From NCBI GenBank assembly GCA_002868945.1, contig PKTX01000049.1:1-41037 (forward strand): DNA of 41,037 nt, read 5' to 3'. Both the position numbers and the translations under genes were made by a program. Each line of letters opens with the position of its first letter. Position 1 is the stretch's first letter. This DNA is from Desulfobulbaceae bacterium. Lineage in GTDB: Bacteria; Desulfobacterota; Desulfobulbia; Desulfobulbales; SURF-16. The notes beneath the pieces are model-generated. The model was given only the letters and a program-made list of their open reading frames with translations, was not told the DNA's origin and did no database searches. Below, piece after piece: positions 16,518 through 37,595 of this stretch.

Positions 16518-16647
16518 AGGGTATCTTGAAGCTTTTCTTCTATTTCTTGGCTCCTGAATTCTGAATTCAGAATTCTCACAGCATCATAGGTCCGGAACAG
16601 CTTTTAACTCGTTTAATGCTGAATAGTTATCTCAATCCGGAAAGTTG
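16518..16647. repeat. Repeat block: hairpin-family left end plus 97-bp repeat copy 1
   Basis: 16518-16530 carries the left end of the hairpin family (AAGGGTATCTTGAA). 16551-16647 is a 97-bp repeat about 90% identical to 21618-21714: three heptamers (TGAATTC, TGAATTC, AGAATTC), then TCACAGCATCATA, AACAGCTTTTAACTCG and a final CCGGAAAGTTG. It lies 135 bp before the RACo-like gene. The rest of the 16476-16782 gap contains a GGCGGCCGT/ACGGCTGCC hairpin near 16710 but no gene. Confidence 0.85.
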
Positions 16648-21617: not shown

Positions 21618-21714
21618 CTCCTGAATTCTGAATTCTGAATTCTCACAGCATCATACGTCCGAAACAGCTTTTAACTCGTTTAATGTCGAATAGGTATCTC
21701 AACCCGGAAAATTG
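21618..21714. repeat. 97-bp dispersed repeat, copy 2
   Basis: About 90% identical over 97 bp to 16551-16647 and the same length. It begins CTCC, three TGAATTC heptamers (21622-21642), then TCACAGCATCATA, the AACAGCTTTTAACTCG core, ending CCGGAAAATTG. It lies 78 bp upstream of the DAHP synthase start. Both copies precede plus-strand genes in the same orientation. Confidence 0.88.
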
Positions 21715-23283: not shown

Positions 23284-24987
23284 ATGTCTCCTCGTCTGGC
23301 GCTTCTTGTTATCTTGCTCATCACCCTGGCCCTGGTTGTGAAGGAGAACCTGGTCAAGCGGCCGGCACAGCTCTATGTCACCACCAGCGGCCATGTGGAG
23401 ATGTGTCTCTCCTGCCATACCACCGAGAAGCTTGATGCCGCCCATGATACCAAGATACTCGGCTGTTCTCCCTGTCATCTTGGGGATGCCCTGGCCATTG
23501 ACAAGAAGGCGGCCCATGAGGGTATTGTCAAGAATCCCGGCGACCTGCGCGTGGTTGAGCAGACCTGCGGGATGGAGGGGTGTCATGCCGGCGATGTCCA
23601 CAAGGTCAAAAATTCGTTGATGGCCACCAATCGTGGTATTCTGGCCACCCTGCTCTACTACTGGGGCGAGGCTCCGGATCAGAACGGTGACTATTCGGTG
23701 GAAGAGCTGCTGGAGAGCGGCGAAAACTCCCTGGCCATTGATTATTATCGCAAGCTGTGCGGCACCTGTCACCTCTGGAAACAGAAGGGTGATCTGCCGG
23801 GGTTCTTCGGTGAAAAGGGGGGCGGTTGCACGGCCTGCCATTTCAGCAAGGAGAGTGGCCTTGACCCGGAGGAGGCCAAGAAGATTCACCCCTTTATCAC
23901 CAAGAAGGTGCCCATGGAAAATTGTGTACGCTGTCATAACCGCAGCGGCCGCATCGGTATCTCCTACACCGGCGTCTATGAGTCGGAGAATTACGGCACC
24001 CCCTATGAGGAGGGCGGCATGTCGAGCAAGGAGTTGCCCGGCAATCGGTTCTATCTCACGATCAGCGACGATGTCCACCATCGGAAGGGCATGAGCTGTA
24101 TTGATTGCCACACCCGAAATGAGATCATGGGCGACGGCACCAGGTATGCCCACTATGAGGAGCAGGTGGAGATCGAATGCCACACCTGTCACAGTCGGGA
24201 TCAGGTGGGCGTCACCCGGAAAGACGAGCAGCTCAACAATGTGCTCAAGCAGGATGAGGAGTATGTCCTGGTCAATAAGCTCACCGAAAAGGTGCACCCC
24301 TTAAAGCCGCCCAAGGCCGGGGTCTGTGATTTTCCGGGCCACAATCGTCTGGGCTGCGACAGCTGCCACGCCACCTGGGTGCCGCAATGTTACGGCTGCC
24401 ATGTCAAGTATGACCGCAGCGACACCGACCTGGACAAGCTTACCATGGAGCAGACCCAGGGCTGGTGGAGCGAGGGGCGCTCCTACCTGCGTTACGAACG
24501 GCCGGTGCTGGCCGTCTGGGAGGACAAGGTGGTGATCGTCACCCCCGGTTGCCAGGATATCATCACCCTGCTGGACGAGGAAGGCGGCGCCGATCGTCAG
24601 TTCAACTCCTTCACCATGGCGGCCATCAGCCCCCATACCACCCAGGCCAAGGGCCGCGGCTGTGCCGAGTGCCACACCAACACCAAGGCCATGGGCCTGG
24701 GCGAGGGCACTGCCTGGAAGGAGGATGGTCGCTGGCATTTTCGCGGTCTTGATCAGGGCCTGGAAACGGCAGTGGGCGACACACCGCCCCTGGACGCCTT
24801 TGTCACCATCGACTGCAGGCAGCTGCAGCGCGGCTCCCGTGACACCTTGCGGCCCTTTAACCAGGAGGAGCTGGCCCGCATCCTGCGCGTCGGTCAATGT
24901 ATCGAGTGCCACAAGGAATACACGGATCCGGTCTGGAAGAAGTACACTCCGCAGACCAGATGTCCGGTTTTTACAGATGAAGGATGA
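23284..24987 (+). CDS. Dodecahaem c-type cytochrome, membrane-anchored
   Basis: 567 aa with 12 haem-binding motifs: eleven CX2CH (first at residues 41-45, then CSPCH, CGTCH, CTACH, CVRCH, CIDCH, CHTCH, CDSCH, CYGCH, CAECH, CIECH) and one CX4CH (CGMEGCH, third in order). An N-terminal hydrophobic stretch (residues 4-19) is a signal or anchor, placing the protein in the periplasm. The number of haems implies electron transfer; the partner is unknown and no quinone-oxidase or reductase subunit is adjacent. The last residues (FTDEG) and the stop codon lie in the heptamer repeat starting at 24976, so the original C-terminus may have been altered. The ribosome site is weak and the start somewhat uncertain. 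Confidence 0.88.
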   Translation: MSPRLALLVILLITLALVVKENLVKRPAQLYVTTSGHVEMCLSCHTTEKLDAAHDTKILGCSPCHLGDALAIDKKAAHEGIVKNPGDLRVVEQTCGMEGCHAGDVHKVKNSLMATNRGILATLLYYWGEAPDQNGDYSVEELLESGENSLAIDYYRKLCGTCHLWKQKGDLPGFFGEKGGGCTACHFSKESGLDPEEAKKIHPFITKKVPMENCVRCHNRSGRIGISYTGVYESENYGTPYEEGGMSSKELPGNRFYLTISDDVHHRKGMSCIDCHTRNEIMGDGTRYAHYEEQVEIECHTCHSRDQVGVTRKDEQLNNVLKQDEEYVLVNKLTEKVHPLKPPKAGVCDFPGHNRLGCDSCHATWVPQCYGCHVKYDRSDTDLDKLTMEQTQGWWSEGRSYLRYERPVLAVWEDKVVIVTPGCQDIITLLDEEGGADRQFNSFTMAAISPHTTQAKGRGCAECHTNTKAMGLGEGTAWKEDGRWHFRGLDQGLETAVGDTPPLDAFVTIDCRQLQRGSRDTLRPFNQEELARILRVGQCIECHKEYTDPVWKKYTPQTRCPVFTDEG

Positions 24988-25395
24988 AGGATGAAAAGGG
25001 CGGACCAAACGATTTGCCTTGCGGGTTGTTCGGCTATACTCTGCGCTTCCGCAAGAGACCGTGGCACAGGTGATGGGCAAGCAGTTGTTACGGTCCGGCA
25101 CTTCGGTGGGCGCCCATTATCGTGAGGCGATCCGAGCTCGATCTGATGCGGAATTTGTCAGCAAGATTCGTAACTATCCAGCTTGTGCCGGAAATGCCAC
25201 CTATTGGTTTGAGCTTCTTGTGGAAGCCGAAAAAGTGGAAGAGGCACTGCTTGCTGATTTGATCCAAGAGGCCGACGAACTGATGGCAATAATGACCAGC
25301 ATCGTCAAGAACACCAAGAGGAAACAACGAAAATGATTATAATACTGGCTGCCAGCGCCCTGTCATCTCGCTCATTTCATCCTTCATCCTTCATC
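24976..25395. mobile_element. Putative IVP-type element bounded by 21-bp heptamer inverted repeats
   Basis: Left end 24976-24996 is GATGAAG-GATGAAG-GATGAAA; right end 25375-25395 is its exact 21-bp reverse complement, with the variant GATGAAA unit innermost on both sides. A further right unit (25396-25402) extends the array. The enclosed 378 bp holds a decayed four-helix-bundle (IVP/S23-type) ORF. The element sits exactly between the cytochrome gene, whose stop it supplies, and hisD. Homologous ORFs occur in rRNA intervening sequences that also have complementary ends; movement of this unit is inference. Confidence 0.65.
24991..25336 (+). pseudogene. Decayed four-helix-bundle protein (23S rRNA IVP/S23 family)
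   Basis: From 25000 the frame reads RTKRFALRVVRLYSALP, then KQLLRSGTSVGAHYREA, RARSDAEFVSKI, YWFELLVEAE and QEADELMAIMTSIVKNTKR, a clear match to the IVP/four-helix-bundle family (usually about 115-125 aa). Two lesions are visible. ATG 24991 is out of frame with the body by one base; removing one A from the AAAA run would give M-K-G-R-T-K. Also, between SKI and YWFELL the family's Q-E-x-E-E-T-like segment is better read in the +1 frame (IQLVPEM) over about 25165-25195. Only a TTG at 25019 could start the body, cutting a conserved helix. Family members form pentameric bundles and are related to Avd of diversity-generating retroelements; no reverse transcriptase is present. Confidence 0.7.
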
Positions 25396-25421
25396 CTTTA
25401 TCCTTCCAACGAGGTTGCCGT

Positions 25422-26732
25422 ATGATTATCCAACCTGTTACCTCGACCAGCAGCAGGGGCAAAGAGCTTCTCGCCACCTTAAACGATAGATTCCAGCTGG
25501 CTGATCCCAAGTGCCGCGAGATTGTCGGCGACATCATCAGCCGGGTGCGGCGCAGCGGTGATGAGGCGCTGCTGGAGTACACCCATAAATTCGATGCACC
25601 GGAGATGGATCTTGCCGGTCTGCGGGCCACGGAGGGCGAGATAACTGCGGCCTATGGCCAGGTGGACGACACTATCCTGGCCTCCATCAGGCTGGCCAAG
25701 GAGCGTATTTGGCAGTTCCACCAACGCGAGATGGAAGAGTCGTGGATGATGACCCGGCCGGACGGCACCATCACCGGTCGCCTCGTGCAAGCGGTGGCCT
25801 CGGCCGGTCTCTATGTGCCCGGCGGCCAGGGCGGCAAGACGCCCCTGGTCTCCTCGGTGCTGATGAACGGTATCCCGGCCGCCATTGCCGGCGTCAAGAA
25901 GAGGGTGATGATGACGCCCCCCGCCGCCGACGGCTCGGTGCATCCGGCCCTGCTGGTGGCGGCCCGGGAGATCGGTATCAGTGAGATCTACAAGGTCGGT
26001 TCAGCCTGGGCCATTGCCGCCCTGGCCTTTGGTACAGAGACCGTCCCTGCCGTGGATGTCATTGTCGGGCCGGGCAATCAGTTTGTTGCCGAGGCCAAGC
26101 GCCAGGTCATGGGTCGGGTGCGCATTGATATGATTGCCGGCCCCAGCGAGGTACTGATCATTGCCGACGAGCAGGCCAAGGCGGCCAGTTGCGCCGCCGA
26201 TATGCTGGCCCAGGCCGAGCATGATCCCCAGGCTCTGGCCATTCTACTCACCACCAGCGCCCGCCTGGCCGAAGAAACCGTGGCCGAGCTCGAAAAACAG
26301 CTGCCTCTGCTCAGCCGCGAGGAGATTGCCCGTACCTCCCTGGCCGAGCGCGGCGCCATCGTGGTCTGTACTGATCTGGACGAGGCCATGGCCCTGGCCA
26401 ACGATATTGCCATTGAGCATTTGGAACTCATGGTGGCCGAGCCCTTTCTGCTGCTGGGCAAGGTGGAGCATGCCGGTGCCGTTTTCCTGGGCAACTACTC
26501 GCCCGAGGCGTGCGGCGACTATGTGGCCGGTCCCAACCATGTCCTGCCCACCATGGGTACGGCGCGCATCTCCTCGGCCCTGGGGGTGGAGACCTTTTTG
26601 AAAAAATCCTCCATCATCGCCTACTCCAGGGAGGCCTTTCTGGCCGATGCCGAGCATATCCAGGCCCTGGCCAATCTGGAGGGGCTCACTGCCCATGCCC
26701 GTTCCGTGGCCGTGCGGCTGGCCGATAAGTAG
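25422..26732 (+). CDS. hisD: Histidinol dehydrogenase
   Basis: 436 aa. It catalyses the last two steps of histidine synthesis, histidinol to histidine with NAD. Conserved: SAGLYVPGGQGGKTPLVSSV, VDVIVGPGNQFVAEAKRQV, IAGPSEVLIIAD, AEHDPQA, IEHLELM (catalytic Glu-His pair) and SPEACGDYVAGPNHVLPT. The start is ATG 25422 behind an ACGAGG site. The right-hand heptamer array ends about 20 bp before it, so the leader is largely repeat-derived. No other his gene is in the window. Confidence 0.97.
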   Translation: MIIQPVTSTSSRGKELLATLNDRFQLADPKCREIVGDIISRVRRSGDEALLEYTHKFDAPEMDLAGLRATEGEITAAYGQVDDTILASIRLAKERIWQFHQREMEESWMMTRPDGTITGRLVQAVASAGLYVPGGQGGKTPLVSSVLMNGIPAAIAGVKKRVMMTPPAADGSVHPALLVAAREIGISEIYKVGSAWAIAALAFGTETVPAVDVIVGPGNQFVAEAKRQVMGRVRIDMIAGPSEVLIIADEQAKAASCAADMLAQAEHDPQALAILLTTSARLAEETVAELEKQLPLLSREEIARTSLAERGAIVVCTDLDEAMALANDIAIEHLELMVAEPFLLLGKVEHAGAVFLGNYSPEACGDYVAGPNHVLPTMGTARISSALGVETFLKKSSIIAYSREAFLADAEHIQALANLEGLTAHARSVAVRLADK

Positions 26733-34006: not shown

Positions 34007-34560
34007 GGCAGAAACGACTAGTGAGATTTTTTAATGATATCCTGAATCCTGAATTCAGGGTTTGGGCGGCAGGTAACCATTTTTGTTTTTCCGGCGCTGG
34101 AAGAATCGATCAGGCAGGCGAGTCTGCGAGACTCCGAAAGAGCAGTTGTCCAAGATGGTCTATACCATGGCAGCGGCCGAGGTGCGAAAAAAGTTGACAC
34201 TGTCGCGGCATTAGGCCCACAATAAAAAAATTGCCCCTTGCCGTCGACGGCCCAATTTCCGCCGGTGTCGCAGCTGTATCGCCATCCTCCTTTCGGCTGA
34301 TGGGTGGCCACTCTTTCCGGCTTTGATCTCAAAAAAATACACCGCCGCCGGTATGGTGTGTCGCCGGCCCCACCAGGCCGGGCGGGGGCACGATTCCGGC
34401 AATTTTAACTTGACCTGAAACGGCGTCGCTGGTAATGAATGGCGGGTAAAAGTACTTAGGTAGTTGTACTTGCGTGAGATTGTCCTTTTTCCCTGCCCGC
34501 ACGGGTGCGGGGCAAAATTCAAACAGCTATATCCGTAATGACCATAACCAAGGAGGCATG
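34007..34560. other. Gene-free region between divergent mltA and acs
   Basis: 554 bp. It contains two heptamers (TGAATCC-TGAATTC, 34043-34056), a hairpin-family right end (34115-34160, ending GTTGTCCAAGATGGTC), and the acs ribosome site. A weak sigma-54-like match (GGGCACG-N4-CGGCA near 34384) lacks the TT before GC. Small ORFs on the minus strand (34018-34332, 34211-34522) show no recognisable family. Confidence 0.55.
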
Positions 34561-37362: not shown

Positions 37363-37565
37363 GGCAACTCTCTGACGTGGTTGTTGGTACCCTGTTTTGC
37401 TTTGATGCAGCGGTGGAGTGGGTGAAGAGGGAGGTGAGAGGGAAGAGGAGAGAGGAGTGTAAAAAAACGTTGTGTGGGGGGGGCTTCTCACCCATAACGC
37501 TTTGCCCTGACATGCCGAAATAGAGAAGGCGAATTGACTGATTTGCAAGCTGTTTTACTGTTTTC

Positions 37566-37593
37566 TGAATCCTGAATCCTGAATCCTGAATCC
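37566..37593. repeat. Four-unit TGAATCC array abutting the bioC start
   Basis: TGAATCC x4, ending 2 bases before the bioC ATG (37596). A purine-rich tract (about 37410-37460) lies further upstream in the 233-bp gap between the hydrolase gene and bioC. The array occupies the place where a ribosome site should be. Confidence 0.9.
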
Positions 37594-37595
37594 TC

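Follow-up and report, generated by a model that had tools for sequence, protein, structure and literature searches.

The feature between a cytochrome gene and hisD in the window (the whole stretch of 41,037 nt analysed here) is, in our judgement, likely to be one copy of a widespread selfish 'IVP element', a hairpin-forming insertion of the 23S rRNA intervening sequence (IVS) kind that would be moved by a trans-acting activity. An IVP element is about 0.4-0.6 kb long and consists of one IVP gene with a tandem array on either side, the two arrays being inverted relative to each other; their unit measures 7 nt, or 8 or 9 nt in certain lineages. Here, we demonstrate the anatomy of this element, its recurrence across phyla in operon junctions and in helix 45 of 23S rRNA, the co-variation of its arms, the states of its alleles at orthologous sites, the presence of near-identical copies in unrelated flanks, the purifying selection on its gene and the inheritance of its repeat period.

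The element at the cytochrome-hisD junction

The left arm (24976..24996, plus strand) reads GATGAAG GATGAAG GATGAAA, purine-rich on the sense strand, and the core of the right arm (25375..25395, minus strand) is its exact reverse complement over 21 bp, the variant unit GATGAAA being the innermost one of each arm. An exhaustive scan found this to be the sole perfect 21-nt inverted repeat with copies no more than 1 kb apart in the 41-kb window, which confirms the heptamer-built repeat described in the original prediction. An extra degenerate outer unit is present on the right arm only, whose outer degenerate units (CTTTATCCTTC) occupy 25396..25406 on the minus strand. From the hairpin prediction and the empty alleles of relatives, we delimit the whole element at 24976..25406 (plus strand). 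The RNA fold predicted for this interval is a hairpin closed by both arms (-159.4 kcal/mol, z -4.35), and Rfam has no family at the site.

Both flanking genes lie on the plus strand and were identified as ORFs with profile matches. Upstream, the 3' end of a multihaem cytochrome gene (ExtM-like, 23284..24987) is overlapped by the left array: its stop codon is at 24985-24987, and the first heptamer of the left arm comes from the gene's final codons (TDEG stop). The first 12 nt of this arm are the native end of the cytochrome gene, common to the empty site of the sister species G001 and to G002. Downstream, hisD (25422..26732) has its start codon 16 nt past the right arm.

Between the arms lies an IVP ORF of the four-helix-bundle family (TIGR02436/PF05635), placed at 25019..25336 on the plus strand by profile matches and alignment and beginning with TTG. 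It scores 56.7 bits against TIGR02436 (cut-off 24; 2.3e-15) and 44 bits against PF05635 (cut-off 33.8; 2.9e-11), above the curated cut-offs, and the family assignment first proposed from the letters alone is borne out by these matches. The ORF had also been described as frameshifted, which is not supported, as about 105 aa of it can be aligned with relatives without a change of frame. The alignment is regular except for an aberrant stretch of 12 aa in helix 3. The frame is open, without a start, from about 24995, and the ATG that the array offers in this frame runs into a stop after MKDEG, so that the first start left is the TTG at 25019. Judged from its sequence, the window copy is probably defective, having no proper start and a damaged helix 3; with intact arms and a damaged gene, it looks like an old insertion.

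In its protein family, its size, its stem-forming terminal inverted repeats and its heptamers, the element resembles the 23S IVS of Leptospira and Coxiella (S23p), and its complementary ends (21-bp arms) are likewise predicted to close a long stem round the IVP ORF. The difference is one of location, as the IVS lie within the 23S gene, whereas the window element occupies an operon junction of protein genes, between the cytochrome gene and hisD. There is no transposase domain between the arms, where the IVP ORF stands alone, and this separates the element from autonomous IS and RAYT elements. It shares with REP/RAYT systems (REPtrons, REPINs) and with MITEs the small gene in inverted repeats, the gene-less pairs and the deletion derivatives; however, RAYT is a Y1 HUH transposase associated with palindromic ends, whereas IVP is a four-helix bundle without a nuclease and its ends are tandem 7-mers. 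IVP is also related to the Avd protein of DGRs, with which it shares the four-helix-bundle fold; our homology search with IVP did not recover Avd by sequence. In contrast to the DGR arrangement, in which a reverse transcriptase (RT) with template and variable repeats stands beside avd, no such repeat or RT lies beside the IVP genes analysed here.

Inverted arrays around IVP genes, in operons and in 23S rRNA

The array-flanked anatomy of IVP genes is far more general than the original prediction had it, and extends across phyla. We collected 192 IVP loci spanning more than 10 phyla; 112 of them, all non-identical, belong to the order of the window genome, and 80 come from species spread over many phyla. 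In the order set, period-7 arrays within 200 bp were found upstream of 49/112 genes and downstream of 55/108 (controls, 2-5 of about 105), and the cross-phylum set gave 42/79 upstream and 47/76 downstream (controls, 2-7 of about 72). When the score tolerates mismatches, an array of clear period is detected beside the IVP gene at 162 of the 192 loci, whereas displaced positions give 17-22 of about 175 and shuffled sequence gives 0; the period is 7 nt in 128 of these loci, 8 nt in 20 and 9 nt in 12.

The heptamer word varies by locus, and also between sites within one genome, and the two arms match only as reverse complements. They do so in 35/52 period-7 pairs of the order set (permuted mean 3.1, maximum 9) and in 35/49 pairs of the cross-phylum set (permuted mean 3.4, maximum 11). 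Relative to the IVP gene, left arms are purine-rich and right arms pyrimidine-rich. Moreover, strict inverted array pairs enclose 96/192 IVPs, as against 5/308 ORFs of the window genome as sampled, two of these five being IVPs themselves, and heptamer inverted repeats beside IVP genes of relatives, which the prediction proposed to look for, are thus found generally. The objection that arrays might be equally common everywhere holds in part for single arrays, of which this genome has 68 of period 7 in 384 kb, mostly away from IVPs; it does not hold for inverted pairs. The same anatomy is seen at cyanobacterial plasmid loci, and at three Xanthomonas loci GGGAATC-type arrays stand on both sides of the IVP gene.

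At orthologous sites the arms co-vary, including at accB-accC, where the unit shared by both sides is AATAGGG in Dyella and GGGATTC in Rhodanobacter (L209), and Xanthomonas has GGGAATC/GGGAATG. The repeat period (7, 8 or 9 nt) is inherited with the IVP protein lineage: the IVP tree needs 15 changes of unit length, whereas shuffling gives a mean of 30.7 (minimum 27), and with one locus per flank cluster 15 changes compare with 22 after shuffling (minimum 18). The protein itself is maintained by purifying selection, as indicated by dN/dS values of 0.04-0.28 in 18 pairs, and a structure search returned XCC0516 (2gsc) and 2rld as solved relatives.

Some loci deserve separate mention. The accB-accC element is kept across Xanthomonadaceae and Rhodanobacteraceae (L213, L218, L221, L210, L198, L209 and L264), and its arms belong to the GGGAATC type of heptamer, which is known to form G-quadruplexes. 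An IVP subfamily with a longer C-terminus (L020, L021, L030, L031, L111 and L115) has 8-nt arrays (AAACGCTG type; one locus scored 9), and similarity among its members runs about 130-240 bp beyond the IVP domain. In L293 (G146, 1340-1960), the 3' part of the IVP gene and the right array are tandemly duplicated, apparently via recombination between arrays. Given this duplication, we rejected the reading of the locus as an array insertion inside an IVP gene and do not count it as evidence for target homology.

The window gene had been contrasted with IVP genes located in rRNA, a distinction that proved wrong in spirit, as rRNA carries insertions with the same heptamer ends. In 23S helix 45 of three relatives from the same order, G065 (two operons), G023 and G111, an IVP gene lies within heptamer arms, and the helix is empty in relatives; it is also empty in the sampled 23S gene of the window genome (L177). 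The layout of these insertions is GGATT-CAGAAGT CAGAATA CAGAGGA CAGAAAC - IVP - reverse-complement units - GGATGG, with CAGANNN/CAGGNNN units on both sides. Similarly, the 428-nt IVS of Coxiella has three to four direct GACAGAT heptamers right before the S23p ORF as well as 28-bp terminal inverted repeats, and RNase III is reported to cut the stems of 23S IVS and so to excise the IVS from the transcript (PMC4990558). The shared anatomy in helix 45 and in Coxiella thus indicates that intergenic and rRNA copies are one kind of element. In the open-access literature, we found no description of the intergenic IVP form, nor of paired heptamer arrays as element ends.

Occupied, empty and deleted sites

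Within genera, orthologous junctions are found in occupied, empty and internally deleted form. The cytochrome-hisD junction, whose empty form the prediction suggested seeking in relatives, is indeed empty in G001 (CCGGTTTTTACAGATGAAGGATAATGCCATG), and in other relatives it holds other small elements or bare arrays. Empty orthologous sites in close relatives, as expected of mobile elements in general, exist at three further junctions as well. At the first, rec1 (17 genomes of g35), the IVP element is present in five genomes, G134 is empty and the others carry solo arrays or a different element. At the second, rec2 (g27), five genomes carry the element, and G148 and G115 are empty. At the third, the site is full in G067 and G073 and empty in G140 and G099, and G116, G102, G077, G096 and G110 have internal-deletion derivatives that keep the arms. 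Species-level divergence at these junctions is too high to fix the exact junction bases, and no target-site duplication is definable there; the flank of L010 has no match in G001, hence there is no second empty site within the genus.

Related elements are also found in unrelated surroundings. L128 and L130, from different families, are 86% identical over 437 bp, the similarity ending in the arrays and the flanks being unrelated, and within one genome L018 and L029 are likewise related elements in unrelated flanks. A polysaccharide junction, classed as gmd-fcl type by visual inspection of its flanks, holds nine IVPs that share 33-67% similarity; most of them resemble an IVP from a different site more than they resemble one another, which indicates repeated insertion at one place. 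Together, the general inverted arrays, the empty sites and the related elements in unrelated flanks give good support to the repeat-bounded mobile unit originally proposed. Many insertions are old and vertically inherited, as at accB-accC in Xanthomonadales, so that movement at the present day is no more than possible.

Other small elements use the same places. REP-like inverted-repeat elements of about 180-240 bp (L291, L292, L297, L298 and L300; L278 and L286; L041) occupy junctions that are filled by IVP elements in sister species, which suggests that these junctions are general insertion hot spots. At hisD and other junctions shared with IVP elements, L051, L050, L308 and L312 carry inverted arrays whose units are 8-9 nt long (GGCACAGA, CACGAAGAA, GCAGAGGC); they enclose short cores in which no IVP is recognised, and perhaps represent sister families.

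Proposed mechanism and competing explanations

An IVP element would be transcribed together with the host operon, and its arms would pair into an extended RNA stem that leaves the IVP ORF in the loop, so that insertion between operon genes or at the tip of an rRNA helix would be tolerated. The stem-loop RNA could be cut out of operon mRNAs and rRNA, or tolerated in them. The IVP protein may bind the array or the stem, and this would account for the inheritance of unit length with the protein. A host or co-resident activity, acting in trans, would complete the mobility. In addition, the arms may be kept matched through unit slippage together with hairpin-templated correction, in which one arm serves as the model for its partner, and internal deletion would give rise to MITE-like array pairs without a gene.

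More tentatively, and at odds we would put below even, IVP elements may constitute a distinct class of prokaryotic mobile DNA, defined by ends that are short tandem arrays of lineage-specific period (7, 8 or 9 nt) and locus-specific sequence instead of fixed terminal repeats. IVP would help to generate or recognise the arrays, and the abundant heptamer arrays of Xanthomonas, cyanobacteria and other bacteria, whether or not they hold the gene, would be their remains and satellites. The element links two old puzzles, namely the origin of ORF-bearing 23S inserts and the excess of 7-nt tandem repeats in bacteria. If our reading is right, the annotations 'four helix bundle protein' and 'S23 ribosomal protein' mark very widespread tiny mobile elements, and the array of an IVP protein offers a way to test what that protein does.

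It is unlikely that the hairpin and small protein form a resident regulatory module, tuning expression in operon junctions and spread only by the exchange of whole operons. Such a module would account for the purifying selection on IVP, for the conservation of the accB-accC copy across Xanthomonadales and for the tight placement of most copies between co-directional genes, with right arms often ending beside the downstream start codon. However, it does not predict presence and absence within genera at three junctions and at hisD, nor the L128/L130 and L018/L029 pairs in unrelated flanks, nor unrelated IVP lineages at one junction, nor insertion in 23S rRNA.

Similarly improbable is a retroelement satellite, in which IVP, as a relative of Avd, brings an RT to the hairpin RNA, whose cDNA copy is then inserted. 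In our genome search, 49 genomes have both IVP and RVT_1, 30 have IVP without RVT_1, 35 have RVT_1 without IVP and 32 have neither; 30/79 IVP genomes are thus without a detectable RVT_1 (odds ratio 1.5, Fisher p = 0.24), and the RT helper suggested in the original prediction shows no association with IVP. This stands against the established IVP/Avd family relationship, the insertions in highly transcribed RNA such as 23S and the single RVT_1 of the window genome, located on another contig (C64), all of which would suit a satellite. Because its presence does not track IVP, we rejected RT as a simple trans factor. A Y1 transposase does not seem to be required as helper either; 8/79 IVP genomes are without one, and it is so nearly ubiquitous as to be uninformative.

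Quite unlikely, too, is that the machinery copies its heptamer from the target, reiterating 7 nt of the flank at both ends with the far end inverted. Of the four junctions with empty alleles, two already hold one unit of the array word in the empty state. At hisD (GATGAAG), the empty G001 has GATGAAGGATAA and G002 has GATGAAGGATGA where the array of the window genome (G000) begins, and at rec1 (AAGGCGA), the empty G134 has AAAGGCGAA at the position of AAGGCGAAAGGCC in occupied genomes. The differences in heptamer among sites of one genome would also agree with copying. However, the empty alleles of the two other junctions contain no such seed, and arrays of the GATGAAG type occur elsewhere in the window genome (TTCATCC in L142). 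Moreover, the constant purine/pyrimidine polarity and the related words, such as CAGANNN in 23S insertions distant from each other, speak for a unit that arrives with the element. Either some sites are selected with the help of word homology, or the target sometimes supplies the word; within our preferred reading of a mobile IVP element, a heptamer shared with the target may help to choose or stabilise some sites.

Finally, it is hardly credible that there is no element and that heptamer SSRs simply grow by slippage in intergenic DNA with IVP genes often nearby, since the many single arrays away from IVPs and the over-representation of heptamer repeats in many bacteria (PMC4692102, PMC4679880) would agree with this, but it is already contradicted by the pairing statistics (inverted arm matching against permutation), by the excess of strict pairs at IVPs over other ORFs, and by the fixed polarity and inherited period.

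Heptamer SSRs such as the GGGAATC arrays of Xanthomonas, the TAACTGA arrays of Beggiatoaceae and the cyanobacterial STRR share 7-nt arrays with IVP elements. The Xanthomonas arrays include 70 convergent inverted pairs in one genome (PMC4692102), and those of Beggiatoaceae were speculated to be mobile (PMC4679880). In the passages searched, these two reports make no mention of IVP genes beside the repeats and draw no link to them, and we found no paper in the open-access literature tying heptamer repeats to IVP genes.

In the window, solo arrays lie at 1-154, 16554-16576, 21621-21643, 34039-34054 and 37565-37594, with the words TAACTCC/TGACTCC at the contig edge and CTGAATT/CTGAATC elsewhere, and contig edges often fall within heptamer arrays. 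Elsewhere in the same genome, L005 (G000:C70, 1-18435) is an island of more than 20 heptamer arrays with the words CTTGAAC, TGAGGAC, CTTGCCC and GAGGGGT, and contains two IVP genes together with inverted pairs without IVP.
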